Positions 7,689-31,704 of a stretch of 33,774 nt of DNA are shown here, in pieces. Position 1 is the stretch's first letter. Each line of letters starts with the position of its first letter. The position numbers were made by a program, and so were the translations under genes. The notes below the pieces were generated by a model that was given only the letters and a program-made list of their open reading frames with translations, was not told the origin of the DNA and made no database searches. The stretch is from a virus: positions 1-33,774 of the IMG/VR virus record IMGVR_UViG_3300035660_001488; one strand, written 5' to 3'.

Positions 7689-7895
7689 TTATAGCGGTTG
7701 GTTCGCCGGCTGATTCCTCTTGCTGTCTTGCCATTCCCTGATTGCTTTCAAAACGGCCGCCACTACTCCGATGAAAATCGGCGGTATTAAACTCGCCAAC
7801 TCTGTCGACTCTAACAATCCCACCGCTCCGCTGATGATGAAAATTTCCACGAACCGCATCGCTATTCTTTTTGCGGTCGTGTTGTAAATGTTCAT
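7689..7895 (-). CDS. Holin-like membrane protein
   Basis: Protein of 68 aa with two hydrophobic segments (about residues 14-32 and 36-52) and a charged C-terminus (KAIREWQDSKRNQP), the layout of small class II phage holins. Its ATG overlaps the amidase stop by 4 bp, so the two are translationally coupled, supporting a role in releasing the endolysin through the inner membrane. The stop codon is followed at once by ACAAGGTCG, a variant of the element seen upstream of many late genes. Its function rests on topology and position, not on sequence similarity I could check. Confidence 0.7.
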   Translation of the reverse strand: MNIYNTTAKRIAMRFVEIFIISGAVGLLESTELASLIPPIFIGVVAAVLKAIREWQDSKRNQPANQPL

Positions 7896-14592: not shown

Positions 14593-14808
14593 TTATTGGT
14601 TGTTGTTTGGTTGGATTCTGACTCGACCTTTTAGCGATGGCTCAAAATAATAGCCATCTTCTCTTTGTTGGAATTTTTCTTTTTTAATAATGTTGGATTT
14701 CGAAGCCAGCCCCGCTTCGGCTGGTTTTTCCGCTATTTTTTTTTGCGGTGCTTTCTTAATTTCTTTTTCTAAGTCCTGATGTTTAGTTTTTAAATCGATT
14801 TTAGACAT
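14593..14808 (-). CDS. Hypothetical small basic protein
   Basis: Protein of 71 aa, Lys-rich, with a Lys/Ala/Pro-rich middle that looks disordered and a C-terminus ending LKGRVRIQPNNNQ. I chose the ATG at 14808 because it overlaps the fibre stop codon in an 8-bp ATGTCTAA junction; a longer frame from 14901 runs through the end of the fibre gene. Function unknown. Confidence 0.6.
   Translation of the reverse strand: MSKIDLKTKHQDLEKEIKKAPQKKIAEKPAEAGLASKSNIIKKEKFQQREDGYYFEPSLKGRVRIQPNNNQ
14622..14632 (-). promoter_or_regulatory. AAAGGTCGAG element inside a gene end
   Basis: AAAAGGTCGAG on the minus strand, 31 nt before the ATG at 14590. This copy lies within the last codons (LKGRV) of the 71-aa gene yet keeps the standard distance to the next start. 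Confidence 0.45.
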
Positions 14809-16159
14809 AGGCGATTTGTTTCCAGTTAGCCCCATCGTAAATGTAAAGTTTGCCGTCCTGACCGAAATACATTGTTCCCATACCTGGGCTTGATGGAGCA
14901 CTGGCTTGGGCTGCGAAGTCGATGAAATCTGGATTGATGATTTCGTCTACGTAAAGCCGCCTCCAGTAAGCGGTTGACCTTCCTAAATCGCAGTTGACCA
15001 CGTAAGGTGCGATGGTTTTACCGAAGTCTATTCGGTCTGAATACCAGTCCATGTCTACTCCGCCGTTCCAGATGATTCTTCCGCCTGATGACGGGAATTT
15101 TATAAAGTAGCAGTAGACGTCGTTCCACTGGTAGCTCGGCGATCCGCAGTCCATTGCGTTGTTTACCATTGGTGCGAAATGCGTCCCGCCAACATAGACC
15201 GCTCCTTGTCTCAATCCTGCCTGCCCTAAATCAGCCAGCATGACTTCGGCCGCTGCCTCTTCGGAGTCGTATCTGTAAATTTCCATTCCGCCGTCGCTGT
15301 GACTATTTCCTGGATCGTAACTCACTCCCTGCCAGAGCTCTCCTGATTGGACATTCGAATCTCTCTGGATGATTTTTCCAGTGGAAGTAATCTGGCATCT
15401 GACGATAGCACTGGCGTCTACGGCTAAAAAGGAATGGTAGGTCGCATCCATTTCCACTCTTTGGTTTCCTTCTGGTAAGGTTCTTATTGTAATTCCTGTC
15501 AGAATTCCTGCATTAATTTTAACTGCACTTAAATCGTTAATTTGGGCGTTAGTGACAGCGAGGTCTTGAATCTTGGCTGTGCTAATGGCTGCATTCATTA
15601 TCTTGCTATTTCCTACTGCCAAGTTTCCAATCTTTGCCCATTCTACGGCGAGATTATCTATCTTGGCTGTCTGAACCGCAAGGTCGTCTATCTTTCCCGT
15701 GCTAACGGCAAGGTTCATTATTTTGCTGTTGCCCACTGAAAGGTTGCCGATTTTTGCCCACACTACGGCGAGGTCTTGAATGTGTCCCGTCTGAACGATT
15801 AATTCTTTTATCTGGGCTGACAATGTTATAACCGCTCCGCCTGTCCAGATGTTGTTTGCTTTGACCGCCTCGTTTGCTATCTTGTCCCACTCTACGGCTG
15901 CGGCCGCTATCTTTTCTTTGGTCACCGCCAATGAGTGAAGGTGTTCTGTCCAAATCGCATCGTCAGCTACCTTATCTTTGGTCACCGCTCCGTCCTCTAA
16001 TGCCAGCTCTCCGACCGCTCCTGTTTTAATCTGAAGCGTGTCTATTGATTGCGGAGCTAATACTGGCGAATTTATCCCGTCGTGGGTGTGGGGCGTAATT
16101 TCTGGAAACGGCAGGTCTGGAATCTCTCTGTTTTTGAAAATTCTTATTTTTTCTTTCAT
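14801..16159 (-). CDS. Tail fibre with decapeptide repeats
   Basis: Protein of 452 aa. Residues about 40-215 are a run of ten-residue repeats of the form x-x-K-I-x-x-L-A-V-x (for example STGKIDDLAV, QTAKIDNLAV). Such repeats are common in the shafts of phage tail fibres and tip proteins and probably form a trimeric beta structure. Residues about 220-452 form a Gly/Asp/Tyr-rich globular region that probably binds the receptor, ending GKLYIYDGANWKQIAYV, a motif frequent at fibre ends. The N-terminal 40 residues with THDGINSP likely attach to the particle. It starts 1 nt after the stop of the nozzle-like gene. Confidence 0.8.
   Translation of the reverse strand: MKEKIRIFKNREIPDLPFPEITPHTHDGINSPVLAPQSIDTLQIKTGAVGELALEDGAVTKDKVADDAIWTEHLHSLAVTKEKIAAAAVEWDKIANEAVKANNIWTGGAVITLSAQIKELIVQTGHIQDLAVVWAKIGNLSVGNSKIMNLAVSTGKIDDLAVQTAKIDNLAVEWAKIGNLAVGNSKIMNAAISTAKIQDLAVTNAQINDLSAVKINAGILTGITIRTLPEGNQRVEMDATYHSFLAVDASAIVRCQITSTGKIIQRDSNVQSGELWQGVSYDPGNSHSDGGMEIYRYDSEEAAAEVMLADLGQAGLRQGAVYVGGTHFAPMVNNAMDCGSPSYQWNDVYCYFIKFPSSGGRIIWNGGVDMDWYSDRIDFGKTIAPYVVNCDLGRSTAYWRRLYVDEIINPDFIDFAAQASAPSSPGMGTMYFGQDGKLYIYDGANWKQIAYV
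15521..15760 (-). repeat. Tandem 120-bp repeat within the fibre gene
   Basis: Residues 134-173 (DNA 15641-15760) and 174-213 (15521-15640) are two 40-residue units, each beginning WAKIGNL and made of four decapeptides. The match is visible at DNA level, for example shared GCCGTAGAATGGGCAAAGAT-type segments, suggesting fairly recent duplication. Confidence 0.7.
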
Positions 16160-16160
16160 G

Positions 16161-17606
16161 TTAAAGGATGCCTAATGTTTCAAAATAAGTGGTGACGGCT
16201 TTTACTTCTGGCGTCTCGTTTCCTGCGGGATGAAGATTTACTGCCATTTCAAATTCTTCCCCTTTGCCTTTTTCTTCTTCATTGTCCTCGTCTCCTGTTT
16301 CAATTGTGAAAATTGCTTTGGTAATTCCTTCCTTGTCGAATTGCTCTGCCCCGTCTTCCATCGTTGCCAGAAGCCAGCCGCCTTCTTCGTTCACTTTGTA
16401 AAAAACTTCTACGCTGCAATTTTTAGGCAGGGGCTTGGTCAGAAGCTTGATGTGCCTGAATCCTTTCTGGCTGAACGGCTCGTCGGCATCGAACACCATC
16501 CCTTCGTATCTGGCTTCGGCTTTGCTGTTCTCGTCGATGGTGTCCACTCCGTAGCTTGAGCCGTCTTTCCATGAAACATAGGGCTTATCGCTATACATTC
16601 CGATTGCTCCTATCGTAACGTTTTCCATTTTTCCGTGCGACGGAATGTATTCTAGGTTCAAAGCCGAAACTTCGTTTTTGCTCAATCTGCCGTAGGAATA
16701 AACACCGCATTTATTCGAGCCGTTTACTCCCAAAAGAGGAAGCCCTTTGAAGTTTGTCGCTGCTCCTGGATTGACCCAGCCCCCGCCTGGAAACTGCTTG
16801 ATGCGAAGCAGGTTTGCCGTGTCCCAGAAATAAATTGCACCGTTTATCCCTGCCTGGATAAGCAGGAACTCTACTGAAATCATTGCGTTGACTCCTTTCT
16901 CGGCTATCATCTTTTTCTGAATCCATGAGGGCTGAACTTTATCCCAAGTCCAGAGCCATCCTTCTTCAACCTGGTCCCCTTTGGTTGAACCAATAATTAC
17001 TAGCTGGTCTGCGTCCAACAGGCATTTTGACCGATGGGTTGGAACTAAATCTAATGCTTTGTTGTTAAAGTTCCCTTCATAATCTACCATTGCGATGTAT
17101 CCGCCGTCGCAAATCATCAGCACTCCGCAGGCGATTCTCATTGTGTGCCACGCAGGATCGCCAGTAAGAGCTCCGAAGGTCTCGACATCGGTTGCCCAAT
17201 CCCCAGTGGTCTTGATTCTTTTTACTTTGGTCTCTGTCGCCCAATAAAGGTAGCGTCTGTATGTGCCTGCGCCATCGTTGTTTTCGTATTCGACTGCTCC
17301 TGTTATTTTGCCGTCAGCATCGGTGTATTTCAGTTCCCAGCTTGACGTCGGCGTTGCCTTGCTGTAAATTTTCCCCGTATCACCAAACCCGTAAAGCTTG
17401 CCGTTGCTGCATGGCACGAAGAAAAGAATCAGATCGGTCACTACGCTTCCCGAATCTTTTTTCAGTGCCTGGTTACATTTTAAGGTATTCGCTCCCGACC
17501 GGATGTCCAACCCGTAACCAAATCTGAATGCTCCTTTGACTCCTTCATAGGCGTCGTCGGCGATTCCGCCACGAAACCCCCGAATTTTATAAGCGTTTAA
17601 TGCCAT
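16161..17606 (-). CDS. Putative tail nozzle / beta-propeller structural protein
   Basis: Protein of 481 aa, rich in beta strands, Gly and aromatic residues, with repeated short blades such as GKLYGFGDTG, RRYLYWATET and GAIYFWDTAN that suggest a beta-propeller. The N-terminal phrase on a DIRSG core resembles proteins that coat or stabilise packaged DNA below the portal. It follows the adaptor gene and precedes the fibre, where podoviruses encode the tail nozzle. The C-terminal region includes an acidic linker (about 440-455). Identity as a nozzle is inferred from position and composition. Confidence 0.65.
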   Translation of the reverse strand: MALNAYKIRGFRGGIADDAYEGVKGAFRFGYGLDIRSGANTLKCNQALKKDSGSVVTDLILFFVPCSNGKLYGFGDTGKIYSKATPTSSWELKYTDADGKITGAVEYENNDGAGTYRRYLYWATETKVKRIKTTGDWATDVETFGALTGDPAWHTMRIACGVLMICDGGYIAMVDYEGNFNNKALDLVPTHRSKCLLDADQLVIIGSTKGDQVEEGWLWTWDKVQPSWIQKKMIAEKGVNAMISVEFLLIQAGINGAIYFWDTANLLRIKQFPGGGWVNPGAATNFKGLPLLGVNGSNKCGVYSYGRLSKNEVSALNLEYIPSHGKMENVTIGAIGMYSDKPYVSWKDGSSYGVDTIDENSKAEARYEGMVFDADEPFSQKGFRHIKLLTKPLPKNCSVEVFYKVNEEGGWLLATMEDGAEQFDKEGITKAIFTIETGDEDNEEEKGKGEEFEMAVNLHPAGNETPEVKAVTTYFETLGIL

Positions 17607-17611
17607 GGGTT

Positions 17612-18226
17612 TTATAATTGCCTGCTTGAAATTGCCTGCCCTTTTGAGACGCCCGACGGTTCTTCGTTCTCCCTGTCTTTTATTTCCTGAAGCATGGAGT
17701 TGGCTTCCAGAACTTGTTCTTTGGCGTCATCGTCCCGTCCTTTCTCTTTTTTCAGGCAAATGGCTAATGCTAATTTAATAATCGGTTCATCCATTTCTTC
17801 TGGCGTGACCGGTTCATCTGTCGGCTCTACCAGTTTCACTGGTCTTCTCTGATAATAAACATCGATGATTTTGCCGTCCTCTCCTATGGTCGGCTTTATT
17901 AAAAATTGGTCTCCGATGATTGTAAAAACTTTCTCCCAAGCGTAGTTTCCACCTTCGTAATCTTCTGGGTCTGTGGGATGGTAGGTCTCGCCGTCCACTT
18001 TGAGAAAAATCATCGATTTGTAATCGAATGGATTGTAGTATGCTTCCCTGTCTTTCTCGGTCAGAATGGTGGAATGTTTTCTCAGGAATTTCCATCTGGC
18101 GTAGTTGCAAGCCCTGATGATGGATGTATTTATCCATCTTTTTTTGCTTTCCTCACTCCAAAATCCTGTCGTCTTTGAAGCCGACATTCTGCTGTTTAAA
18201 TCTTGTAAAAATTCTTGGAGTTGCAT
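17612..18226 (-). CDS. Head-tail adaptor (SU10-adaptor-like)
   Basis: Protein of 204 aa with an N-terminal helical half (LQEFLQDLNSRM, then RWINTSIIRACNYARWKFL) and a middle beta segment (KVDGETYHPTDPEDY), followed by an acidic helical tail. This layout matches the adaptor proteins of SU10-like short-tailed phages that join the portal to the nozzle. The SU10-type capsid protein in the same operon supports the call. It lies between the amidase-bearing tail protein and the nozzle-like gene with almost no spacing. Recognition rests on pattern and context rather than an alignment. Confidence 0.65.
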   Translation of the reverse strand: MQLQEFLQDLNSRMSASKTTGFWSEESKKRWINTSIIRACNYARWKFLRKHSTILTEKDREAYYNPFDYKSMIFLKVDGETYHPTDPEDYEGGNYAWEKVFTIIGDQFLIKPTIGEDGKIIDVYYQRRPVKLVEPTDEPVTPEEMDEPIIKLALAICLKKEKGRDDDAKEQVLEANSMLQEIKDRENEEPSGVSKGQAISSRQL

Positions 18227-18227
18227 G

Positions 18228-19868
18228 TTAGGTTAATTTGCCCGTGCTTCGGTATTTCCGAACATAGGGCAATAAATTTAGACCTGGACAATTGGTGGCT
18301 GTTCCTGGCACTTCGCCGTGTCCGAATACTTTCTCTTTTGAAATTCCTTTGCTTTTGCAGATGTCATCCAGTAAGGTCTGCAGGGTTGCCAGTTGGGCTG
18401 TCGTGGGTTGCTGGGTCTGGAAATCTCCGCAGAGGCAGATTCCTATGCTTCGGTAATTCATTTTGTTGTCTGGACAATGAGCCCCGATTTTGTTTTCTGG
18501 TCTTCCCTGAATCAGCAGTCCGTCTCCGTCGGCTGCTCCTGCGATCCATTTGTGGTAACCAATATCTCCCCAGCCGATGCCGATGTGGTTGTTTTTAATG
18601 GTCTGGAAATGAGTCGTGTCTCGGTCTGTGGCTGAATGATGGACTATAATAAATTCTGGGTAATTTGATTTTTCCCATCTCGGCAAATCTTTTGACGTGG
18701 TCTGGATTGTTCTTTTTCTCTGCCAGGCAATCACCAGCAGAGCTGGAAATTCTCCGCTATTTTTTATGTAGTCCCAAATCATTTTGAATTTCCCTGACCC
18801 GCTTTTCCAATCTTCCAAGACCAGACCTATTTTGTTGTTTTCTGCCCAGCCCGCTCTGTCTACAATTTCCTGAATGATTTCTTTTAAATCTGGCGATTCG
18901 TAGACGCTTTCGGCTGACCAGTGTTCGCCCACTATCACCCCTGACTCCTCATGCCCGATGAACCATTCTGCTTGGGCGGTTGTTTTTGTTCTGGTCGATG
19001 GTCTGTTTGAGCCGCCTGATTGGAATACTGAAGCGTTGTCTTCGGCGAATCCTTTGATGAGCAGGTTCGGGTAGCCGTTGTTCTGGTTTGATTCGGTGAA
19101 TAATAATACTGCCGAGATGATTTCCGCTCCTTTGGGAATGCTGATTCCGCTGAAAATAAACCCGCCGTCGCAAGAACCGCTTCCGTCATTTCCTATGGTG
19201 ATGACGTTCCCCGACCCGTCTGGCAGCCAGGTTGTTTTGTAATCTTCTTCTCCGTCCCTGTCTGTTCCGCCTAAGTAGCCGATGGTTATTTCTGTTTTGT
19301 CATCTGCGAACCAAACCTCTAATTCTGCCTGGTATCCTTCTCCTTTGCCTTTATCCCAGCAGGTTTCTGCCTGCCCGTCGGTTGAGCCGTTGTCTTCAAT
19401 TACAAAAGCAATAGCGTTTCCTGGTTTCCAGTCGGCTTGGGCGACGATTTCTTCCACGATCAGTTGGAGATTCGGCGTCTGCGTCCATTCGTGAACTTCC
19501 CATTTTTTTATGATGTGCCATGCCTTGCTGTTTGCGGTTTTGATTCTTGACGAAGGTCTGATGGCTTGGCTGAACGGCTTTGTGTCTGCTTCCTTGATTC
19601 CTTTGATGATTAATTTCACATCAGGGTCTGTGCTGTCAGTCACTGCTGGTCTTAATTTTAATCGTGCCAGCATTATCTTTGCGTTTTTGGGAATGTTCAC
19701 GTCCCTGAATCTGAACGCTCCGTGCTGGACTACGCCGTCGTATTTTCCGAACGTTATGACGCTTCCTGTTCCGCCCTCTGAATACCAGGTCTCGTTATTT
19801 TTTTCTCTGCCGTCATCGTTGTTCTGCCCGATGCTGGCTTTGAATTTTAAGACCTGATGCTTTGGCAT
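18228..19868 (-). CDS. Tail protein: two beta-sandwich repeats plus C-terminal amidase
   Basis: Protein of 546 aa. Two related domains of about 180 aa (near 20-195 and 200-385) share the pattern ipKgA.I..A.L, a W-E/H turn and LKEIIQEIV..A.W, and look like carbohydrate-binding beta sandwiches. Residues about 402-546 form a PGRP/Amidase_2 domain with His410 (VHHSAT), Tyr438, His517 (GHGEVP) and Cys527 (NCPG). It probably digests peptidoglycan during DNA entry, anchored by the sandwich repeats. The amidase domain is paralogous to the endolysin at 7892-8431. It lies between the head decoration-like and adaptor genes. Confidence 0.85.
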   Translation of the reverse strand: MPKHQVLKFKASIGQNNDDGREKNNETWYSEGGTGSVITFGKYDGVVQHGAFRFRDVNIPKNAKIMLARLKLRPAVTDSTDPDVKLIIKGIKEADTKPFSQAIRPSSRIKTANSKAWHIIKKWEVHEWTQTPNLQLIVEEIVAQADWKPGNAIAFVIEDNGSTDGQAETCWDKGKGEGYQAELEVWFADDKTEITIGYLGGTDRDGEEDYKTTWLPDGSGNVITIGNDGSGSCDGGFIFSGISIPKGAEIISAVLLFTESNQNNGYPNLLIKGFAEDNASVFQSGGSNRPSTRTKTTAQAEWFIGHEESGVIVGEHWSAESVYESPDLKEIIQEIVDRAGWAENNKIGLVLEDWKSGSGKFKMIWDYIKNSGEFPALLVIAWQRKRTIQTTSKDLPRWEKSNYPEFIIVHHSATDRDTTHFQTIKNNHIGIGWGDIGYHKWIAGAADGDGLLIQGRPENKIGAHCPDNKMNYRSIGICLCGDFQTQQPTTAQLATLQTLLDDICKSKGISKEKVFGHGEVPGTATNCPGLNLLPYVRKYRSTGKLT

Positions 19869-19872
19869 TTTT

Positions 19873-20448
19873 TTAGGACGCTTTCCTTAAGGCAATTAAT
19901 GGGACGTGAAGCGACCAGTCCGTTGGGCTGCCTGGATAGGTTGTTGGCAATGCTCCGTAAGTTTGGGTTACTGCATAGCCCAAAAAAGCAGAAGTGCCGA
20001 GAGTATTATCTAATCCATTAATCGGGTATGCTGCTCCTCTATCGATTGCTCTTACCGTCGTTCCTGTTTGAACACCTGTTATTACTGCAAGCCAGTAAAG
20101 TTTTCCGCCCTGCAATTTGATGCTGATTGTCAATTCCTTCACCCCAGTGCTGTCTGTTGCGACCTCGCCTGCATCCAAAACCAGAGCCCCTGGATAGCAT
20201 GCTCCGTTGTCGACGTAGATGCCCATCCTTGCCACTCCGCCCGATGCCGCTGCCGTTGTCACATTGATGGCGATGCGGTCGAACGTCATGGTCTTTGGCA
20301 CGAAAAATGGGAATGCCCGAAGCGAATTGACCGATGAGATTGACTGCGTGGTCAGGGCGACTCCCGTCAGGAATCCGCCGTAGTATTGCCCGTTCTTTTT
20401 AAACCTCTGAATGTTGAGGTCTCCTTTTTGCTGTTTGAAATCTGCCAT
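19873..20448 (-). CDS. Phage structural protein, beta-sandwich, possibly surface-binding
   Basis: Protein of 191 aa, poor in charge and rich in Ala, Gly, Thr and Val. It carries a pattern common in phage tail or decoration proteins: MTFDRIAINVTTAAASGGVA, then GIYVDNGACYPGALV and GGKLYWLAVI. This suggests a jelly-roll or carbohydrate-binding beta sandwich. It lies 4 bp before the amidase-bearing tail gene and 6 bp after the 98-aa gene. A fibre-associated or head-surface role is likely; the precise role is unknown. Confidence 0.65.
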   Translation of the reverse strand: MADFKQQKGDLNIQRFKKNGQYYGGFLTGVALTTQSISSVNSLRAFPFFVPKTMTFDRIAINVTTAAASGGVARMGIYVDNGACYPGALVLDAGEVATDSTGVKELTISIKLQGGKLYWLAVITGVQTGTTVRAIDRGAAYPINGLDNTLGTSAFLGYAVTQTYGALPTTYPGSPTDWSLHVPLIALRKAS

Positions 20449-20454
20449 AATTTT

Positions 20455-20751
20455 TTACGCTTCGGTAATAAATTCCACTCCTTCTCCGCTCACTGATGCG
20501 TCAATCCAAACTTTGACGGGCGTGTCCACTTTTAATCTGACCGAGTCGCCTGCTTCCAGCGAGAAATAATCTGCATTGGTCAGCAGGGCTGTTGCCGAGC
20601 TGTATCCTACGCCTATTATGCCCGTGTTTGTTCTCTTGGCCTTTACGACCAGATAGCAATCTTCTCCGATTTTAAAGTTCGGCAATTGGACAGGCGTGGC
20701 TGCAGTGGTGACGTTTTGCTGTCCCGTTTTTAAATTTGGTCTGCTTGCCAT
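20455..20751 (-). CDS. Small structural protein, decoration-like
   Basis: Protein of 98 aa with beta-strand character and the phrases AKRTNTGIIGVGYSSATAL, FSLEAGDSVRLKVD and KVWIDAS. Short all-beta proteins of this kind recur next to capsid genes in tailed phages and are often virion components. No enzyme motif or signal peptide. An AAAGGTCGAG element lies 32 nt upstream of its ATG. Confidence 0.65.
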   Translation of the reverse strand: MASRPNLKTGQQNVTTAATPVQLPNFKIGEDCYLVVKAKRTNTGIIGVGYSSATALLTNADYFSLEAGDSVRLKVDTPVKVWIDASVSGEGVEFITEA

Positions 20752-20783
20752 TTTTTCTGTTTTGTTGAATAGTTATTTGGTTA

Positions 20784-20793
20784 CTCGACCTTT
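20784..20793 (-). promoter_or_regulatory. AAAGGTCGAG element before the 98-aa structural gene
   Basis: AAAGGTCGAG on the minus strand, 32 nt before the ATG at 20751. It is preceded by a short GC-rich stretch and GGGCTTTTTATT that follows the stop of the 151-aa gene and could act as a weak terminator. Confidence 0.5.
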
Positions 20794-20817
20794 AATAAAA
20801 AGCCCGCTTCTAATTGC

Positions 20818-21258
20818 TTAGAATTTGGGCTTTTTCGGCTTTGTTGATTCAGTTCCCCGAATCCCTTTGGCGGAAGGTTTTGCCCCTTCCTCGTGTCCTT
20901 TCCCTGCCATTTCCTTTTTTCTCAGTTCTTCCTCTTTGGCCGCCACTGCTTTTTCTCTGGCTTCTAAACTCTTAAAGCGTTCCTCTCTGGCTTGCTGGGC
21001 GTCTTCATTTCCTTTTAATCTGTAGAAAAGATTGCCGAAATTCTGATGATTCTCCAGAAATTGAATCTCGTCTGGGTCGCTCGTCTCATACACTCCGTTG
21101 TGGAACTGGATTGACTTTCCTGACACGACCACGACTCTTCCTTCCACTTCTTTGGTATAGGACGCTTTGTTTATCAGTTTGAGTTCGGCACTTTGGGAAA
21201 TGTATTTTGCCTTTTTCGATTTAGTTTCTTTTGTTTCTTCTTTAGTTTTTTTAGGCAT
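20818..21258 (-). CDS. Hypothetical head-associated protein
   Basis: Protein of 146 aa from the ATG at 21258; a TTG at 21273 would add five residues. The centre holds a small beta region (residues about 32-80, with GRVVVVSGKSIQFHNGVYET and a DPDEIQFL motif) similar in style to phage proteins encoded after the capsid gene. The second half is a Lys/Glu/Ala coiled-coil helix and a basic tail. It may complete the capsid or form part of the head-tail joint; the function is not known. Confidence 0.65.
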   Translation of the reverse strand: MPKKTKEETKETKSKKAKYISQSAELKLINKASYTKEVEGRVVVVSGKSIQFHNGVYETSDPDEIQFLENHQNFGNLFYRLKGNEDAQQAREERFKSLEAREKAVAAKEEELRKKEMAGKGHEEGAKPSAKGIRGTESTKPKKPKF

Positions 21259-21286
21259 GATAATGTTACTCAATTTTTAATTTTTT

Positions 21287-21297
21287 CTCGACCTTTT
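21287..21297 (-). promoter_or_regulatory. AAAGGTCGAG element after the capsid gene
   Basis: AAAAGGTCGAG on the minus strand, 28 nt before the ATG at 21258, directly downstream of the interlocked hairpins in the capsid-gene trailer. Confidence 0.5.
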
Positions 21298-21307
21298 ACT
21301 TGTGACA

Positions 21308-21399
21308 GGCACTTCTGCTCGGCTCATCCGAAGTGCCGTTTGAGCCGAGCATCTTTGCCACAAGGCAGCGTCTCGGTTTTCTGTTGACAGGCAACCGAG
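21308..21399 (-). promoter_or_regulatory. Interlocked hairpins downstream of the capsid gene
   Basis: The 3' trailer of the capsid gene holds two perfect but mutually exclusive stems. GCTCGGCTC pairs with GAGCCGAGC (21317-21325 with 21342-21350, 9 bp), and GGCACTTC pairs with GAAGTGCC (21308-21315 with 21330-21337, 8 bp). A third hairpin pairs 21372-21378 with 21393-21399. None has a U run, so attenuation, RNA stabilisation or processing is more likely than simple termination. Confidence 0.6.
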
Positions 21400-21430
21400 A
21401 GCCCCGAATCTTATTCAGGTTTTTAGACGA

Positions 21431-22600: not shown

Positions 22601-22627
22601 TGTTTGTTTTGTCCTTTAGGTTACTTT

Positions 22628-22652
22628 TGGGAGGTTCGACTAATTCTCCCAA
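22628..22652 (-). promoter_or_regulatory. Hairpin with GTCGAA loop in the capsid leader
   Basis: TTGGGAG and CTCCCAA pair around a loop of about 12 nt containing TTAGTCGAAC, on the minus strand. The ATG of the capsid gene follows about 25 nt later. The loop sequence resembles the GGTCGA core of the recurrent late-gene element. Confidence 0.45.
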
Positions 22653-22711
22653 GAGTTTTTTAGCACCCACTTGCGGGAACTTTCTGGAGTATTGCTCACG
22701 GAGTTTCCGAT

Positions 22712-22745
22712 GGGAAGCAGGGCTACTGCTTCTCCCGTTTTTTTT
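22712..22745 (+). terminator. Plus-strand rho-independent terminator before the capsid gene
   Basis: GGGAAGCAG (22712-22720) pairs with CTGCTTCTCCC (22726-22736) with one bulged T, and eight T follow on the plus strand. It points against all neighbouring genes, which lie on the minus strand. Confidence 0.6.
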
Positions 22746-22750
22746 AAATT

Positions 22751-23578
22751 TTAAACTCCCAATCCGCCGAGAGGCGACTTTGGCGTTCCTTCCCCGAAAA
22801 TCTTTTCTACTCTTTCCTGCTCTTTTGTCTTTTCTTCTTCTGAAGTCGGGGGCGCGCCTTTTCCGCTCTCTACTTGGGCTTTTGCTTTCTTAAGGCGGGC
22901 TTTTTCTTCTTCCGTCATTTCTCCCTCTTCTCCTTTCTGCTTACCAGCGAAGGCATCGACTTTTTCGCACGCTTCCTTCAGCGGGATCACCTTGCCCTTT
23001 TGGGCTGCGGTGTCAATCAAAGCCAATACTAACTCCCGATACTCTGGGCTGGTCTTCAGGAGAGGATGGTCTTTTTGGGCTTCTCTGATTTCTTTTAATG
23101 CCGCGTCTCTTGTCGAACTTTTTTCCTCGTAGGTTTTGTTTATTCTTTTTTCTATCTCTCCCAGAATCCACGTCGCAAAACCCTTCGGAGTCATCTTCTG
23201 AAATTCTTCGTCGTTGGGAATCTCCTCTTTTTTCTCTTTTTCTTTTTCCTCTCCTTCTTCTCCTTCTTTGGCTTTCCCCTTTTCCTTCTCGGCGAGTTTT
23301 ATTTCCAAATCTTTGACTTTCTTTTCCTGCTCATTAAATTCCTTTATGACATCCTCTCTCGATTTGCCGTGCCATCTGTCCTTCTCTTTCTTTTTGGAAT
23401 CCTCGCCTTCTTCTTCGCCCTCGCCCTTATCCTCGCCTTCCTCGTTTTCTTCTTCCTCGTCTTCTTCCCCTTCTTCATTTTCTTCTTTTTCCTCGTCCTC
23501 TTTTTTTTCTTCGTCTTCTTCCTCATCTTCGGGCGGATTGTTGAGAAGTGCGTCGAGTTCCTTATTTTTGTCTGGCAT
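22751..23578 (-). CDS. Acidic scaffolding protein (putative)
   Basis: Protein of 275 aa with an extremely acidic N-terminal third (residues about 15-65 almost all Glu, Asp, Lys and Gly), a Lys/Glu coiled-coil middle and a helical C-terminal domain (about 125-235). It lies immediately upstream of the major capsid protein, the usual place for scaffolds, which are typically acidic and helical. No protease motif is seen. The sequence is low in complexity, so similarity searches may be unhelpful, and the call rests on composition and position. Confidence 0.75.
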   Translation of the reverse strand: MPDKNKELDALLNNPPEDEEEDEEKKEDEEKEENEEGEEDEEEENEEGEDKGEGEEEGEDSKKKEKDRWHGKSREDVIKEFNEQEKKVKDLEIKLAEKEKGKAKEGEEGEEKEKEKKEEIPNDEEFQKMTPKGFATWILGEIEKRINKTYEEKSSTRDAALKEIREAQKDHPLLKTSPEYRELVLALIDTAAQKGKVIPLKEACEKVDAFAGKQKGEEGEMTEEEKARLKKAKAQVESGKGAPPTSEEEKTKEQERVEKIFGEGTPKSPLGGLGV

Positions 23579-23603
23579 AATAAAAATAGTTAATTTTAAT
23601 TTT

Positions 23604-23614
23604 CTCGACCTTTT
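23604..23614 (-). promoter_or_regulatory. AAAGGTCGAG element before the scaffold gene
   Basis: AAAAGGTCGAG on the minus strand begins inside the stop codon of the 70-aa gene, 25 nt before the scaffold ATG at 23578, and is followed by an A/T-rich leader. Confidence 0.5.
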
Positions 23615-23825
23615 AACTCAGCTGTCTTCTGAATTCTTTGCTTCTGGTGATTGAGCTTTTGCAAACCCTGATGGCTGCGGTCTTCTTGTCCTCGCCTGCT
23701 CTCGGATTGAACTCATTATCTGCCATCAGACTGTCCACGCAGGATTTAATTCTGTTGTCAGCTTCCTGACCCGTTTTTGTAGTTTCTTCCCACTTTTTTG
23801 TTTTGCCTTTGATTCCGTATGGCAT
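23613..23825 (-). CDS. Small phage protein with AxxxCK motif
   Basis: Protein of 70 aa beginning MPYGIKGKTKKW and containing EDKKTAAIRVCKSSI. Small proteins combining an MPY-G-x-GK start with a K-x-x-A-I-x-x-C-K motif are frequent in tailed-phage head operons, often near the scaffold. Function is unknown. It lies 4 bp after the 93-aa gene. Confidence 0.65.
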   Translation of the reverse strand: MPYGIKGKTKKWEETTKTGQEADNRIKSCVDSLMADNEFNPRAGEDKKTAAIRVCKSSITRSKEFRRQLS

Positions 23826-23829
23826 AAAT

Positions 23830-24111
23830 TTATTTTTCCCTCATGGCTTCGGCCGCTTCCTCTTTTCCTTTGATGGCGGTCTCGACCATTGAGAGGATTT
23901 TTTCGTAGGTGTTGGCATTGGCTCGGTGCTGGAGATACTCGGAAGCGATCTGCTCGGCGGTCTTGCCTGTAATTTCAAACTCCCGAAGCTCGCCGTATTC
24001 AATGCGGAGCTCCTCTTTGATTTTTTCTTCAAGCCATCTCCAGCCGTCGGTTCTGGTCATCTCCAGCACCGCCAGTCCAGTGTCAAATTTTTCCTCGTTT
24101 GTTCCTGCCAT
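23830..24111 (-). CDS. Hypothetical helical head-operon protein
   Basis: Protein of 93 aa, mainly helical (DGWRWLEEKIKEELRIEYGEL, the first 20 of which are typical). It includes a stretch SEYLQHRANANTYEKILSMVE resembling small proteins found between portal and scaffold genes in many phages. No enzymatic motif. It starts 12 bp after the 98-aa gene. Likely a minor head or assembly protein. Confidence 0.65.
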   Translation of the reverse strand: MAGTNEEKFDTGLAVLEMTRTDGWRWLEEKIKEELRIEYGELREFEITGKTAEQIASEYLQHRANANTYEKILSMVETAIKGKEEAAEAMREK

Positions 24112-24123
24112 TTTTATTTATTT

Positions 24124-24420
24124 TTAAGCAGTTTCTTCTGGCGGTGTTGCTCCTGACGGCATTCCCAATCCGCCCAGATTTGTTTCTTCTGCTCCTGCCA
24201 TTTCAGTCAAGGTGTCGATCAAGCTCTTAACTACATCACCGAGAGCCGACCCGTTTCGCAGGGCGTCTTTGGCTTTGTCTACCACTGCCTGAATCTGGTT
24301 GCATTGTGCTTCTATGTCGCCTTTCGGTGCTTCAGAAGGCGTTAAATTCGGGGCTTCGGGAAGTTGCCCTTCCTCTGGAGTTTCTTCTTTCGGAAGTTCC
24401 TCGTCTTTTTTCTTTGCCAT
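24124..24420 (-). CDS. Hypothetical Glu/Pro-rich head-operon protein
   Basis: Protein of 98 aa with a disordered Glu/Pro-rich N-terminus (residues about 1-36), one helical segment (about 36-75) and a Gly/Pro-rich C-terminus. No recognisable domain. It sits in the run of small genes between portal and scaffold, and an AAGGTCGAG element precedes it by 30 nt. Confidence 0.6.
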   Translation of the reverse strand: MAKKKDEELPKEETPEEGQLPEAPNLTPSEAPKGDIEAQCNQIQAVVDKAKDALRNGSALGDVVKSLIDTLTEMAGAEETNLGGLGMPSGATPPEETA

Positions 24421-24450
24421 GTTGGTTTTTTTAATTTGTTATTTTAATTG

Positions 24451-24459
24451 CTCGACCTT
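24451..24459 (-). promoter_or_regulatory. AAGGTCGAG element before the 98-aa head gene
   Basis: CAAGGTCGAG on the minus strand, 30 nt before the ATG at 24420, right after the stop of the 133-aa gene. The 15-bp block CTATAAACAAGGTCG is repeated exactly at the end of the 68-aa holin gene (7680-7694). Confidence 0.5.
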
Positions 24460-24461
24460 GT

Positions 24462-24863
24462 TTATAGGATTGGGAACGGCTTTCCCCAATCGCACAGAAT
24501 TCCGCTGATGTGGATTTCTGCTGACGGAGTTCCGCCCGGAGTGGTGAACGTGACCACTGCTCGCAGATATCTTTTCTTTCTGGCAATCTGGAAAGTATAG
24601 ACGCTGTCTGCCGCCACTGTTACTTCGTCTCCGCCTTCTGCCGTACTGGGTGAACTGAAACCAGAGTCCTCGTCTTCCTGAATTTTGATTTTGGTTGATG
24701 CCTGACTTCCCAAATCGCCCACTGCCGCTTTCACGAGGGCAGAGGGAAATGCGAATCCGTCTGGCAGATAGGTGTCTACTGCTGCTCCTTCGGTAGTTGC
24801 GTTTATCACCTGAATTGGCAGGAGCTCCGTTAATTTGATGTCGTTTTGTAAATCTTTTGGCAT
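24462..24863 (-). CDS. Phage structural protein of the small all-beta type
   Basis: Protein of 133 aa. The N-terminal segment (VINATTEGAAVDTYLPDGF), the central KIKIQEDEDSGFSSPS and the YLRAVVTFTTPGG strand match a group of small phage proteins often encoded beside the portal or capsid genes, where the sequence resembles a measured-response template of strands. Probably a virion component of the head exterior. It follows the portal gene with an AAAAGGTCGAG element between them. Confidence 0.65.
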   Translation of the reverse strand: MPKDLQNDIKLTELLPIQVINATTEGAAVDTYLPDGFAFPSALVKAAVGDLGSQASTKIKIQEDEDSGFSSPSTAEGGDEVTVAADSVYTFQIARKKRYLRAVVTFTTPGGTPSAEIHISGILCDWGKPFPIL

Positions 24864-24893
24864 GGTTATGTTTGATTCTGTTTAGTTAATTTT

Positions 24894-24904
24894 CTCGACC
24901 TTTT
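24894..24904 (-). promoter_or_regulatory. AAAGGTCGAG element after the portal gene
   Basis: AAAAGGTCGAG on the minus strand directly abuts the portal stop codon and lies 30 nt before the ATG at 24863. Confidence 0.5.
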
Positions 24905-26755
24905 TTATTTGCCTATTTTCCGCAGGATCGGAATCTTTGCCATTACTTTGCTCATGATTCCCTGGGGGGCCGGAATCGGCGACGGCGTCGGCTCCGGAGA
25001 CGGCGTGAGCGGTTCTTTCGGCGCTGTCGGTTGTTTTTCTTTTTCTGGTACTGGCTCTGTGCCTTCTTCTCCCAGCAGTATTTCCTCGTATGATTCTCTG
25101 TCCAATTCTTCCAGAATCATTTTTTGCAATTCTCTTTTTCTCTTTTGCCATTGCTTCACTTCCTCTGGGTTCTGCGGGTCTGGTTTGTCTTGGGCTACGA
25201 ATTTGTCGTAAAGCATCAACACCTGATTTAATCTGGTTTCCTGGTCTGGCGGTATAATCGGCTCGACTTCCACGATGGCATCGACATTCACTTCCTTGTC
25301 TTCTTTTTTGAATTCTTTAAAGTCCACTTCATCGCCGACTATTCGGTAAAGCTTATTTTCGCTGATGAATTCTTGGTTCAGTTCAATCAGATTGTTTACC
25401 AATTGGGTCAGCGATTCTGCGAGCTGATCTGCAAGGACGCCCAATCTCAGATTGCCCTGCCCCAATAACATAGCCACTTTGGCCGCCGGCTCTTGTTTTC
25501 CCTTGGGGCTGCCTTGCATGTATTCGCTTATCGCCAGCGTTCTCTCGATTTCGTTTCTCATCAGCTGGTCCTCGGTGATTCCCATTCCGCTAATTTCTGG
25601 CGGCCTCTCTATCGCCACGTCATCCAGTTTTCTCAACTCCCACTTTTCTCCTGGCGCGAAGATGATGTCGTGTTTTTCTATACCAGAATCTTTTCTGATT
25701 TTCACCACTGGGTCGAGCATCAAAACCACGTCGTCCATTCTCTGATTTCTCAAATCCGCCATTTCAAGAATGGTTGTTTCCACTGGTTCAATATGCCCTG
25801 TCGCCCACAATTCCCAGTTCAAGAAATGGTCTGGCAAGTCAATGAAAATGTTTCCTTTGTTGACTTTAAGGTATGGATTGTCTTCATCCCTGATCAGTAT
25901 TTTCTCGTTGCAGAGACCTATCAATTTTCCTTCTTCAAAATCCCAACATTCCCAAATTTCTATCTGTTTTTCTTTCTCCGCTTTTTGTTCGCTGATGCTT
26001 ACCGTTTCTCCCTCGTCTGTTTTCTTTTCGTCTCCTGCAATCTGCGCCATCTTTTTAATGTTGATTTCGTATCTCTCTTTCTTCCAGTCCTCGACTTGTT
26101 TTGGTTCTACGAATTCCAAATTTTTGTAAAGCTTCGGTAGTCCTGCTTTTTCTCTGGCCTTTTCTTCTCTTTCTATCGCTTCTTTGGTTTTTACGATTCT
26201 GTGTATGATCCAAGGGCAATCTTCCTGAAGGTCTGTGGTTTCGGGTGCCGGCAGGATGTCCCAGAGGTCTATGATTTCTAAGGTCGGGTCATCGTAATCT
26301 CCGCCGGTAGCCGTTCGCCAAAATACTTTTGCTATTCCGTTTCCGAAAATCGTTGCCGATTTCAACCATTGTTTTATCTTCTTTGCCAGCTTAATGACGT
26401 CGAAATCGTAATTGACTAAGTCGTCCCATGATTCCAGCGACTTTGACTGGACGTCTTTTTTTTCTCTGGGCAGGACCCTCGTTTTTCTTTTTGCGGTTGC
26501 CAATCTTGAAATCACCGTCTCGACAATTTCAAAGGCAATCGCCGGCATTAATCTGGTGTTATAGGCGTAATTCTTTTTTTCCTGGTATGCTCGGTAAAGT
26601 TTATACATCCGCAACCATTTCTTTTGGAATGGCGTGTGAAATTCTTTTGCTCTCTTAAATCTTTTTTGCCACTTTTCTATCAATGTTTTTTCTGTGTCGC
26701 TTGGGCTGTAGTCCGCCTCTGATTTTTGCGTTATTTTTGTTTCTTCTTCTGCCAT
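24905..26755 (-). CDS. Portal protein
   Basis: Protein of 616 aa and probably the dodecameric portal through which DNA is packaged. Features include an N-terminal helical region (KWQKRFKRAKEFHTPFQKKW), a membrane-free core with ATIFGNGIAKVFW near 135, a long stem-helix region (GMGITEDQLMRNEIERTLAI) and a C-terminal acidic/Pro-rich tail. It lies at the start of the structural operon with scaffold and capsid genes downstream. I chose the ATG at 26755; the longer frame from 26794 would translate the terminator hairpin. The exact portal subfamily is not resolved, but size and context suit short-tailed phages. Confidence 0.8.
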   Translation of the reverse strand: MAEEETKITQKSEADYSPSDTEKTLIEKWQKRFKRAKEFHTPFQKKWLRMYKLYRAYQEKKNYAYNTRLMPAIAFEIVETVISRLATAKRKTRVLPREKKDVQSKSLESWDDLVNYDFDVIKLAKKIKQWLKSATIFGNGIAKVFWRTATGGDYDDPTLEIIDLWDILPAPETTDLQEDCPWIIHRIVKTKEAIEREEKAREKAGLPKLYKNLEFVEPKQVEDWKKERYEINIKKMAQIAGDEKKTDEGETVSISEQKAEKEKQIEIWECWDFEEGKLIGLCNEKILIRDEDNPYLKVNKGNIFIDLPDHFLNWELWATGHIEPVETTILEMADLRNQRMDDVVLMLDPVVKIRKDSGIEKHDIIFAPGEKWELRKLDDVAIERPPEISGMGITEDQLMRNEIERTLAISEYMQGSPKGKQEPAAKVAMLLGQGNLRLGVLADQLAESLTQLVNNLIELNQEFISENKLYRIVGDEVDFKEFKKEDKEVNVDAIVEVEPIIPPDQETRLNQVLMLYDKFVAQDKPDPQNPEEVKQWQKRKRELQKMILEELDRESYEEILLGEEGTEPVPEKEKQPTAPKEPLTPSPEPTPSPIPAPQGIMSKVMAKIPILRKIGK

Positions 26756-26768
26756 AAAAAATAAAAAA

Positions 26769-26840
26769 ACGAGGTCACAACTTCTCGTCCTCAAAACTTC
26801 TCGTCTTTAAACGATTTGAGGACAGAAGTCGCAACCTCGT
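26769..26840 (-). terminator. Terminator-like hairpin directly before the portal start
   Basis: Arms 26771-26795 and 26815-26838 pair over about 24 bp (several G-U pairs and one bulge) and are followed on the minus strand by GTTTTTTTATTTTTT and the portal ATG. It lies downstream of a strong promoter, so it could attenuate the structural operon unless an antiterminator acts. Confidence 0.7.
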
Positions 26841-26848
26841 CTCTTTTA

Positions 26849-26864
26849 GTTCCAAAATTGGAAC
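26849..26864. promoter_or_regulatory. Perfect 16-bp palindrome (operator-like)
   Basis: GTTCCAAAATTGGAAC is perfectly self-complementary and lies about 30 bp downstream of the predicted transcript start. It could bind a dimeric repressor or antiterminator. Confidence 0.5.
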
Positions 26865-26897
26865 GCCGTCAGGTTACTGATTTTCTTCTGTTATTTA

Positions 26898-26927
26898 ATT
26901 TTAACGCTGTTTGAAAATGTGTGTCAA
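26898..26927 (-). promoter_or_regulatory. Strong promoter of the structural operon
   Basis: Perfect -35 TTGACA (26922-26927), 18-bp spacer and TAAAAT (26898-26903) on the minus strand. The predicted start is near 26891, leaving a leader of about 136 nt to the portal ATG. The -35 begins about 20 bp after the MltG stop codon. Confidence 0.7.
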
Positions 26928-26946
26928 GGGCTATTTGAAAAATTAA

Positions 26947-28266
26947 TCATTCCGTTCCCATTAAAATTTTGCCACACTTCGATTCGGCAGTTTCGGCTAT
27001 GTTTATTATGTCATCTATCTTTGGCTCAACACCATTGAGTTCTTCTCCCGTTTTCAGCTTTGCCATTACAGCCCTATCATGTGTCTGCCAGACGGATTCT
27101 GCTTCGCAATTATTGATTGCCTGCTTAATTAATTCCCATGATTCACTGGCTTGCCCTTCACTACTGATTTCTCCTTTCAGGTATTGTTCGACATTCGCCT
27201 GATGCTCCTCGTAAGTTTTGGAGCAGTGTATCTGTCCGCTTGAATCATGCAGGTAATACAGGCATTCTGTCTCGGTCGAGTTCAGCACGGCGTCGATGGC
27301 ATCAAGTCCTGGATTGTCGATCGGATGCGGAGGAAGTCCTTTATAGAGATAGGTATTATAGAGGGAATCGATTTGTTTGTCGGCGAGTGTAATCGGCTTC
27401 CACCAGTCGCCTTCGCTGATGTAGGTCGCTGTCGGCTGGAGAAGTTCTGGGTTAAAACAGAATCCTTCTTTTCTTGCAGTGCTTTCTGGGTCTTGACATG
27501 GATCGCCTTTGAAATGAATTTTATCATCCCGTGCGTATTGCACAGTGGCGTCGACTTCGAGCTTCATGTCTTTTAATAACCGATTCCAAAGGATACCTGC
27601 GATGAGGGGCATGTCATCTTTGCCTGCTGCTTCTCTCTGCACTATTGATGCGATTTTCAGTGCCGTAGTCCATTTGATGTTTGCCTTCAAGAATTTGTCG
27701 GTGTATGGCTGAAACTTTTCGTTGAATTTTGCCCGCAGGCGGTCGGCAACCTGAAGCGGTTCTTCGTCTTTCGGTATGAGATAAGTGTCGGGAAAGTAGA
27801 CGCCCTCGACGTAGTCGTATTTCATGGCGGTGAATTTTATGACCCAGTCGCTTTTCTGCTGGTCACTCCAGCCGAGTTCTTCGGCAAGCAATTCTGCGAT
27901 CTGCTCTTTGCGGAGTCCCTCAGGAATCACGACCCATTTCATGTATGGCTCGCTGGTCAGGACTTCGGCTAACTCCCACGCATTCATTCCTTTTGAAATT
28001 TTGTATCCGCCTGATTGAATCTTGTCTTGCCAGCCCTTTTTCTTCAGCACGTAATTGAATGCCCATTCGCTTCTTATGTAGCCCTGCTCTTTCAGTATAG
28101 GAATTAATTCTGCTTCGGTCGTGGTCAGGTTTACTACGATCCGTTCTGTCTCTGCTCCTTTCTGCGGTGCTGCGAATTGATGCTGGAATGCGAAGACGCC
28201 GATGCCAATTACCATCACGACGATTCCGCCTGCAATCCCTATTATGATTTTTTTATTTTTAGTCAT
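26947..28266 (-). CDS. mltG: MltG-type endolytic murein transglycosylase
   Basis: Protein of 439 aa homologous in pattern to MltG (YceG-like), which cleaves nascent glycan strands at the inner membrane. A signal-anchor TM helix spans residues 6-28. The LysM-like and catalytic core shows EGVYFPDTY (154-162), the catalytic Glu212 in ASIVQREA, GILWNRL and MKLEVDATVQY (224-244), then YNTYLYKGLPPHPIDNPG (303-320). It extends about 75 residues past the usual end with an unfamiliar tail. I chose ATG 28266, which overlaps the stop of the upstream 57-aa gene in an 8-bp ATGACTAA junction; a TTG at 28299 is less likely. An MltG between terminase and portal genes is unusual. Confidence 0.88.
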   Translation of the reverse strand: MTKNKKIIIGIAGGIVVMVIGIGVFAFQHQFAAPQKGAETERIVVNLTTTEAELIPILKEQGYIRSEWAFNYVLKKKGWQDKIQSGGYKISKGMNAWELAEVLTSEPYMKWVVIPEGLRKEQIAELLAEELGWSDQQKSDWVIKFTAMKYDYVEGVYFPDTYLIPKDEEPLQVADRLRAKFNEKFQPYTDKFLKANIKWTTALKIASIVQREAAGKDDMPLIAGILWNRLLKDMKLEVDATVQYARDDKIHFKGDPCQDPESTARKEGFCFNPELLQPTATYISEGDWWKPITLADKQIDSLYNTYLYKGLPPHPIDNPGLDAIDAVLNSTETECLYYLHDSSGQIHCSKTYEEHQANVEQYLKGEISSEGQASESWELIKQAINNCEAESVWQTHDRAVMAKLKTGEELNGVEPKIDDIINIAETAESKCGKILMGTE

Positions 28267-28432
28267 GATTGAAAATGTAGTATCGCAGGGCATCGGCAAT
28301 CTCTTTGTGCCAGTTCTCTCCCAGTCGCCATCCGTCTTGGTAGAGGGCGTAGGTGACCACTGCCATTCGGAAGCCGACCCAAACGATTGCTGCGATTAAA
28401 ATTCCGATGATGATTTTTTTGTTTCGGGTCAT
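28259..28432 (-). CDS. Small single-TM protein coupled to MltG
   Basis: ORF of 57 aa. Its N-terminus MTRNKKIIIGILIAAIVWVG is nearly the same as that of the downstream MltG (MTKNKKIIIGIAGG...), suggesting duplication of the signal anchor. The remaining 35 residues are amphipathic with two Trp and Tyr-Tyr. Its ATG overlaps the stop of the 329-aa gene (ATGA) and its stop overlaps the MltG start by 8 bp, so it is almost surely translated. It may act as a regulator or partner of MltG in the membrane; the function is unknown. Confidence 0.75.
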   Translation of the reverse strand: MTRNKKIIIGILIAAIVWVGFRMAVVTYALYQDGWRLGENWHKEIADALRYYIFNHD

Positions 28433-29418
28433 AATTTAGGAGTTTTACAATCTTTCAGGATTTCGGTATCTGGGAGGACGCTTCCATCTTCCCCTACGTC
28501 GTAGCAATAGCCATTCTCATCTCTGTAAGCCCTGAAGGTTTTGTAATCGTAAGATTCTGTTATCGTTTCATTTTCTCCGCTTTTAATTTCCCTCTGCTTC
28601 GTTCCGTAATTTATCCAATTTACGAAAGTGAATTCTCCCTCTGGTTTATTCAAAAATGTTCTTAATGCTGCAATGTCTTTCTTTTGTGTTTCTTGCCATT
28701 TTTGCATTATCTCCGTGATTTCTTTTTCGGTCAGGGCGGGTTTGTATTCGTAAGAGAATAATTCTCCACTAAGGTCGCAAATGACGATAGTTCTCCATTC
28801 GCTCTTTGCTAAACTTTGACCCTTTCCGTCTGGAATCAGATTGTAAAAATCTCCTTCGTGGGCTTTAGCCCAGTCGGTGTAGTATGTTCTTTCGTATGCG
28901 TCTGCTTGCCTTAATCTGTAATTCTCTGGGTCAGGCACTAATTTTGCCAGTAGGTTTTGGGCGGATTCTTTTGCTTGGTCAGCAGTAATCCATTTCGTCC
29001 CCTCTATGCAATCTTTTCCTCTATTTAGAATTTCGTTGTTTTCTACATCTACTTCTGTTCTGAATCCTTTGTTGTCCTCGTAGGTTTCAATCACTTTTAA
29101 TTGGGCGAAATCGGTTATTGTTGCTGGGTCGGGGATCCCGTAAGTATAGTATCTTGTTTTTGCTTCTTTGAAGGTTATTGCTAAATCTTCTCCGAAGATG
29201 GATTTGATTTTTTCCATCACTGCCTCTCTTTGTTCTGCGGTTCTGGTTTGATAATATTCCACCAAGACCTGGTCAGATGTTTGGGCTGTCTCGCTTGCTT
29301 TATTTGATTCTTCTGCGATAGTGGTTTTGGTATTTTTTATTTGTTGCAGTCCGATGGCTGTCCCGATTCCTAATCCTATAATTACCGCTCCTATGATGAT
29401 TAAATTCGCTTTTTTCAT
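28429..29418 (-). CDS. Membrane-anchored protein of unknown function
   Basis: Protein of 329 aa with an N-terminal signal anchor (residues about 5-25) and a soluble domain predicted outside the membrane. Residues about 155-235 (ITADQAKESAQNLLAKLV...YRLRQADAYERTYYTDWA) faintly recall PepSY-like modules. Two Cys occur near the C-terminus (YCYDVG, ILKDCKT). It has its own promoter, is coupled to the 57-aa TM protein, and lies in a three-gene membrane cassette with MltG. I do not recognise the family; a role in modifying the host envelope is inferred only from this context. Confidence 0.7.
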   Translation of the reverse strand: MKKANLIIIGAVIIGLGIGTAIGLQQIKNTKTTIAEESNKASETAQTSDQVLVEYYQTRTAEQREAVMEKIKSIFGEDLAITFKEAKTRYYTYGIPDPATITDFAQLKVIETYEDNKGFRTEVDVENNEILNRGKDCIEGTKWITADQAKESAQNLLAKLVPDPENYRLRQADAYERTYYTDWAKAHEGDFYNLIPDGKGQSLAKSEWRTIVICDLSGELFSYEYKPALTEKEITEIMQKWQETQKKDIAALRTFLNKPEGEFTFVNWINYGTKQREIKSGENETITESYDYKTFRAYRDENGYCYDVGEDGSVLPDTEILKDCKTPKL

Positions 29419-29447
29419 GGTTTTTTAATTTCTTAATTTGCTTTCAT

Positions 29448-29457
29448 TTCGACCTTT
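29448..29457 (-). promoter_or_regulatory. AAAGGTCGAA element before the 329-aa gene
   Basis: AAAGGTCGAA on the minus strand, 29 nt before the ATG at 29418 and within the first bases of the transcript predicted from the adjacent promoter. Confidence 0.45.
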
Positions 29458-31649: not shown

Positions 31650-31704
31650 TATACTTCTTCGGCTTGCGCTCAGAAAGGCTCACGCAAGTCATCCTGGTGT
31701 GTCA
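31650..31704 (-). repeat. Intergenic element, copy A (upstream of terminase small subunit)
   Basis: On the minus strand, the block starting ATGACACACCAGG matches the element upstream of the 1448-aa gene (31 of 41 positions). It can fold a hairpin with CTTGCG pairing to CGCAAG. It overlaps the final codon of the ParB-methyltransferase gene. Confidence 0.5.

Follow-up and report, generated by a model that had tools for sequence, protein, structure and literature searches.

A short leader sequence about 30 bases ahead of structural genes replaces the usual ribosome-binding site in phages of Patescibacteria and is a candidate partner of 16S rRNA helix 26

In phages of Patescibacteria a short leader sequence, AAAGGTCGA, lies about 30 bases ahead of the structural genes, where it replaces the usual ribosome-binding site. 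Its core GGUCGA is the exact complement of the UCGACC found in the exposed loop NNUCGACC of helix 26 (h26) of the 16S rRNA. The evidence, as far as sequences can give it, consists of the position of the element, its conservation, its alternation with Shine-Dalgarno (SD) sites, its presence in host 5' untranslated regions (5' UTRs), the covariation of a hairpin, and the exact complementarity to the conserved part of the h26 loop. We consider it very probable that this is a real 5'-UTR translation element. The more specific proposal that it would pair with h26, acting as an upstream mRNA-rRNA translation-initiation element in a 5' UTR or between cistrons, stands in our judgement at an even balance.

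The window, i.e., the whole stretch of DNA that was analysed, comprises a complete virus record of IMG/VR (33,774 bases), with all probable genes on the minus strand. It encodes an SU10-like capsid, a portal, a gpA-type terminase, amidases, and an integrase, and the hosts of its relatives suggest that its own host belongs to the Patescibacteria. Gene starts were set by simple ORF rules. An Rfam scan of the window revealed no known RNA family. A ResIII (type III restriction-type) helicase gene stands beside an N6/N4 DNA methylase gene (3632-7335), possibly forming a phage-borne restriction-modification pair, and a ParB-methylase fusion is found at 31702-33018. A gene for a YceG/MltG-like cell-wall enzyme (26947-28299), which gave no PHROGs match, sits among the packaging and portal genes, and its homologs keep the gene order in relatives.

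The exact sequence AAAGGTCGAG occurs six times on the minus (coding) strand of the window and never on the plus strand, and the core AAGGTCGA has eight copies on the coding strand versus one on the opposite strand. Order-1 (dinucleotide) resampling yielded a mean of 0.9 copies of the core and a maximum of 4, compared with the 8 observed. All eight coding-strand copies fall within the leader zone, which covers 3.3% of the positions (binomial p=1.5e-12), and every one of them keeps a restricted distance of 26-33 nt between the core end and the start codon. An earlier note on this DNA had described a recurrent element in one orientation at a fixed distance before seven starts; this description holds, also against the shuffled sequences, and an eighth start has to be added. 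In a de novo search run without any prior, AGGTCGA was the most enriched 7-mer ahead of the window genes, and either AGGTCGA or AAAGGTC was the most enriched upstream 7-mer in the closest relatives. Loose matches with two mismatches were at chance level in the window (40 found, 38 expected). The eight copies, with the relatives that keep them, are the following:

29448-29457, minus strand: element AAAGGTCGAA; core end 30 nt before start 29418 (329-aa gene).
24894-24903, minus strand: element AAAGGTCGAG, after the portal gene stop; core end 31 nt before start 24863 (133-aa gene); kept before the 133-aa orthologs in G012, G013, G031, and G032, and present before those of G019 and L045 in the form AAGGTCGT/C.
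24451-24460, minus strand: element CAAGGTCGAG; core end 31 nt before start 24420 (98-aa gene); kept in G012, G020, G002, and G003.
23604-23613, minus strand: element AAAGGTCGAG, overlapping the upstream stop codon; core end 26 nt before start 23578 (275-aa acidic protein, likely the scaffold); kept in 9 relatives.
21287-21296, minus strand: element AAAGGTCGAG; core end 29 nt before the ATG at 21258 (146-aa gene, post-capsid); kept in 6 relatives.
20784-20793, minus strand: element AAAGGTCGAG, preceded by the T-rich stretch GGGCTTTTT; core end 33 nt before start 20751 (98-aa gene); kept in G012, G013, G020, G026, G002, and G003.
14622-14631, minus strand: element AAAGGTCGAG, within the 3' end of ORF 14593-14901; core end 32 nt before start 14590 (76-aa gene); kept in G012, G020, G027, G032, and G003.
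7925-7934, minus strand: element AAAGGTCGAG, within the 3' end of the amidase gene 7892-8431; core end 30 nt before start 7895 (68-aa holin-like gene).

Copies inside a coding end keep the spacing, as had been noticed, but there are two of them (14622 and 7925) and not one. Similarly, an element does exist at the 68-aa gene, not at its stop as had been proposed but before its start, at the usual spacing. A variant AGTCGA (~13240), which had been pointed out before the 1448-aa gene, is not conserved in relatives. Hairpins directly 5' of the linear motif were discarded as a general feature of it; they occur at some sites (24863, 24420, 21258, and 14590), partly within coding ends.

Relatives of the window were pulled from IMG/VR using the capsid and terminase proteins. 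In 9 relative records the core has 4-12 copies in one orientation and 0 or 1 in the other, and the genes they precede are orthologs of those that carry the element in the window (133-aa, 98-aa, scaffold-like, post-capsid, 98-aa, and 76-aa genes). The orthologs that keep the element share 30-78% protein identity with those of the window. The motif that the earlier note had proposed to look for in related phages is indeed present there, before the same orthologous virion genes. A set of 73 instances was picked by the presence of AAGGTCG, and the selection itself accounts for the constancy of these seven bases. In this set the median distance from core end to ATG is 30 nt (mostly 22-43). The eighth base is A in 64/73 and the preceding base is A in 61/73, and the base after the core varies. 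Distant relatives (L052, L056, and related loci) show degenerate AGGTCGC and AGTCGA at similar positions in some leaders.

The capsid gene carries the element in another form:

22627-22652, minus strand: hairpin TTGGGAG-AATTAGTCGAAC-CTCCCAA in the leader of the capsid gene; the loop holds the GTCGA core (22636-22640).

This sequence had been listed as a variant of the linear motif; it is conserved, but as a hairpin. Across 7 phages, 48 of the 49 stem cells are paired, and two or more pair types are seen at each of the seven pairs; the loop GTCG is invariant, this capsid form being without AAAGG. The pairs were counted by a script from hand-placed arms, and MAFFT alignments of the capsid leaders did not hold the stems in register. 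Of four capsid leaders folded with RNAfold, three, that of the window among them, were predicted to form the hairpin and that of G019 was not; the two linear leaders tried were predicted to be essentially unstructured.

Element and SD sites alternate among the phages. In motif-bearing phages 0-13% of the genes have an SD-type site ahead of them, in motif-free relatives up to 32%, and the phages with the highest SD use (20-32%) are all without the motif; some motif-free relatives (L038, L043, and G003C8) are also SD-poor. In the motif-free G018 and G034, the start codons of the orthologs of element-bearing genes are preceded, at about 8 nt, by AGGAGGTGAAAG or AAAGGGGGTGA. The element resembles the SD:anti-SD system, which fills the corresponding leaders in sister phages, in that mRNA-16S pairing would set the start, but the partner of a classical SD is the 16S 3' tail, 5-10 nt from the start, and here it would be the h26 loop, with the element about 30 nt from the AUG. 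The host 16S tails are canonical (GGATCACCTCCTTTCT), which rules out an altered anti-SD tail that pairs with the motif. These tails give 5 bp with AAAGG, and the element might therefore be a non-classical SD or standby element whose AAAGG pairs with CCUUU of the canonical anti-SD. However, the predicted duplex reaches only -3.8 kcal/mol, the distance of ~30 nt is far beyond the SD range, the conserved TCGA is left unexplained, and the capsid-leader form keeps GTCG without any AAAGG. We regard this explanation as very improbable.

To find unrelated users of the element, IMG/VR was searched for contigs with two spaced copies and an ATG. L136 and L138 have no detectable similarity to the window proteome, yet they show the same architecture (TAAAAGGTCGAAAAAATAAAAAA..ATG), with the element before 10/29 and 8/23 genes, respectively, i.e., about a third. 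A Patescibacteria genome encodes a relative of the L136 capsid protein (34%, E=4e-36). Since the same architecture in unrelated phages needs no shared phage regulator, this result argues for a reader on the host side and not for a phage-encoded factor. Cyanophage Syn5, whose host presumably shares the helix 26 loop, lacks the motif and shows no enrichment of it, which speaks against the pairing.

Proviruses related to the window were found in Parcubacteria-type bins (Moranbacteria, Nomurabacteria, and Doudnabacteria) and in Microgenomates (Shapirobacteria, Gottesmanbacteria, and Daviesbacteria), the host genomes being mostly metagenome bins. Some host genes carry the element as well, namely the HU, GroES, and type IV pilin genes of G104 and the VirB2/TrbC-like protein and SSB genes of G216. 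Single host copies may come from a prophage or a contaminant, though HU, GroES, and SSB look like housekeeping genes. A search for TAAAGGTCGAN{21,35}ATG in 287 Patescibacteria genomes revealed no overall excess versus a reversed control, and host use is therefore sparse. In G216 (399 kb), AGGTCG is the top GC-containing leader hexamer, with 9 of its 48 genomic copies in leaders (0.67 expected), and in G314 (120 kb; loop UGUCGACC) AGGTCG/GGTCGA takes this place (6/20, 0.29 expected). The same hexamers are not enriched in the leaders of G009, G075, and G117, hosts without the UCGACC loop. The leaders of G216 (L185-L204) are also enriched in GTTCGA/GGTTCG (7/44), perhaps owing to upstream tRNA genes or to a related element, and in G003 (L076-L084) the top GC-containing leader hexamer is AAGTCG, a possible host variant of the element.

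Several host copies have sigma70-like -35/-10 boxes just upstream, so that in the host the element belongs to the 5' UTR, either inside the transcript or at its 5' end. A -10-like box stands 2-7 nt ahead of the element in some host leaders, where transcription could start within or next to it, and the T-rich stretch ahead of the window copy at 20784 is terminator-like; both observations would fit a promoter or an initiation-proximal DNA element for late transcription. Nevertheless, the spacing to the -10 boxes varies from ~2 to >20 nt, many phage copies come just after the stop codons of adjacent genes, often inside gene clusters, and no RNA polymerase or sigma factor was found among the window proteins scanned. 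The SD alternation across related phages and the capsid core in the loop of a covarying hairpin point to RNA, and a promoter role appears improbable. The same findings oppose the stoperator-like repressor sites that had been suggested together with promoters and gene-boundary recombination linkers. Many copies in one orientation at gene boundaries would be expected of repressor sites or linkers, but the distance is fixed to the start and not to the gene boundary, as seen in the two copies inside coding ends, and the element is found in host housekeeping leaders and in unrelated phages. A linker is also hard to reconcile with an element that stays with orthologous genes over large protein divergence and precedes unrelated host genes. 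We find repressor sites and linkers scarcely credible. Of the four candidates that had been offered, the translation enhancer is the one that the evidence supports.

The 16S rRNA of the hosts provides a possible partner. The 16S loci of G002 and G006 contain TCGACC at a single place, the h26 loop. Ten hosts have both the element and a readable h26 (G002, G003, G005, G006, G086, G118, G185, G245, G268, and G314); their loops are UAUCGACC, UGUCGACC, or CAUCGACC, on stems that differ in sequence. UCGACC is invariant in these ten loops, and the first two loop bases vary, like the motif base after GGUCGA. Four Microgenomates hosts have no UCGACC at h26 and show short, other loops, which fits the pairing proposal. 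In total, 90 of the 116 Patescibacteria genomes with a readable h26 have UCGACC. The calculated duplex of the motif with the h26 loop is -9.1 kcal/mol, versus -3.8 with the anti-SD tail. By our own estimate (4 motif hexamers x 3 loop hexamers / 4096), the chance of a complementary 6-mer between the 9-nt motif and one 8-nt loop is well under 1%; the 16S rRNA as a whole offers many sites, and thus the location of this one carries much of the weight. On the 30S subunit, helix 26 is close to where the mRNA exits. The bacterial SD duplex touches h26 (PMC4611024), and protein bS1 sits next to this helix (PMC11800381). In a Doudnabacteria bin (L071, G003:C1), the 16S rRNA gene matches the family model in several separated pieces, as if it were split by large insertions or introns.

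Several observations temper the pairing proposal. Among the 116 genomes, the association between loop type and motif leaders was not significant (Fisher), and host clade is a confounder of both loop type and motif use. AT-rich motif leaders are present in G044 and G148, which have no UCGACC loop, and may be there by chance. The predicted compensatory motifs are not enriched in the variant-loop hosts G075 (UAUCGACU) and G117 (CAUCGGUC), where the element may simply be unused. G003 has the UCGACC loop, yet its own genes favour AAGTCG over GGTCGA. The conserved AA(A) 5' of GG in the linear copies does not pair with the h26 loop. A further caution comes from the epsilon element of T7 gene 10, likewise a phage late-gene leader element, there upstream of an SD, which was once proposed to pair with the 16S rRNA: its pairing with positions 458-466 was refuted by rRNA mutation and bS1 was favoured instead (PMC8748333), which shows how complementarity of this kind may lead astray.

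A protein reader such as bS1 is also the main rival here. The element would then be a 5'-UTR translation or mRNA-stability element read by bS1 or by another RNA-binding protein of the host, and not by rRNA. Targets of bS1 typically have features like the flanking AAA and the A/U-rich leader, the binding site of bS1 is adjacent to h26 (PMC11800381), display in a hairpin loop suits a protein as well as rRNA, and one element serves both unrelated phages and host genes. On the other hand, a site read by a protein would have no need to be exactly complementary to the invariant bases of the h26 loop, nor would a protein call for the SD replacement in phages of Microgenomates, whose loop differs. We consider a protein reader rather unlikely.

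According to the pairing proposal, GGUCGA would be displayed single-stranded in an A/U-rich leader or in a hairpin loop and would pair with the NNUCGACC loop at the tip of h26. This contact would tether the 30S subunit, and the AUG ~30 nt downstream could then enter the P site without an SD helix. Under this account, hosts use the element for a few genes of apparently high expression, and phages for their late virion genes and their lysis genes. From these sequence patterns we infer that the two RNAs pair on the ribosome and that initiation or reinitiation is thereby increased.

To our knowledge, such viral use of h26 has so far been described only on eukaryotic ribosomes. A search of the open-access literature found nothing on Patescibacteria leaders or on h26 pairing in bacteria. 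The closest likeness is TURBS motif 1 of caliciviruses and influenza B, a short mRNA core complementary to the single-stranded tip of h26 near the mRNA exit, placed upstream of a start codon, sometimes in a stem-loop, in a polycistronic viral mRNA, and its pairing with 18S h26 was proven by compensatory mutation (PMC5972666). TURBS, however, acts on the eukaryotic 40S subunit, with a UGGGA core upstream of an overlapping stop/restart site, and serves reinitiation, whereas here a putative bacterial 16S element with GGUCGA follows the stop in many copies and occurs in host leaders that are apparently monocistronic. The 9-nt Gtx element and the HCV IRES domain IIId, for which mRNA-h26 pairing was proposed or shown to recruit the small subunit (PMC6316650), are eukaryotic too and differ in sequence and context. 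Among phages, the SAS/ESAS of cluster K mycobacteriophages is also a phage-wide repeat before starts, in one orientation, with a proposed role in translation initiation (PMC3203893), but it is an SD-containing 13-mer located 3-7 bp from the start of non-structural genes and absent from host genomes, and the element described here has no SD core. The best explanation of our data is that the element would be a bacterial counterpart of the TURBS/Gtx-h26 interactions.

How bacteria choose start codons in the absence of SD sites is a long-standing question, and the Patescibacteria are largely uncultured. A leader element that matches helix 26 is a concrete candidate for a second pairing site on the bacterial 30S subunit. 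Slightly short of an even balance, in our view, is the broader idea of a second mRNA-rRNA pairing system, independent of SD sites, in Patescibacteria and their phages. Host genes such as those for HU, GroES, SSB, and pilins would use it, and several phage lineages would have taken it up independently as the main start signal of their virion genes. The element would improve start-site prediction, help to assign phages to Patescibacteria hosts, and supply strong leaders for genetic tools in these bacteria.
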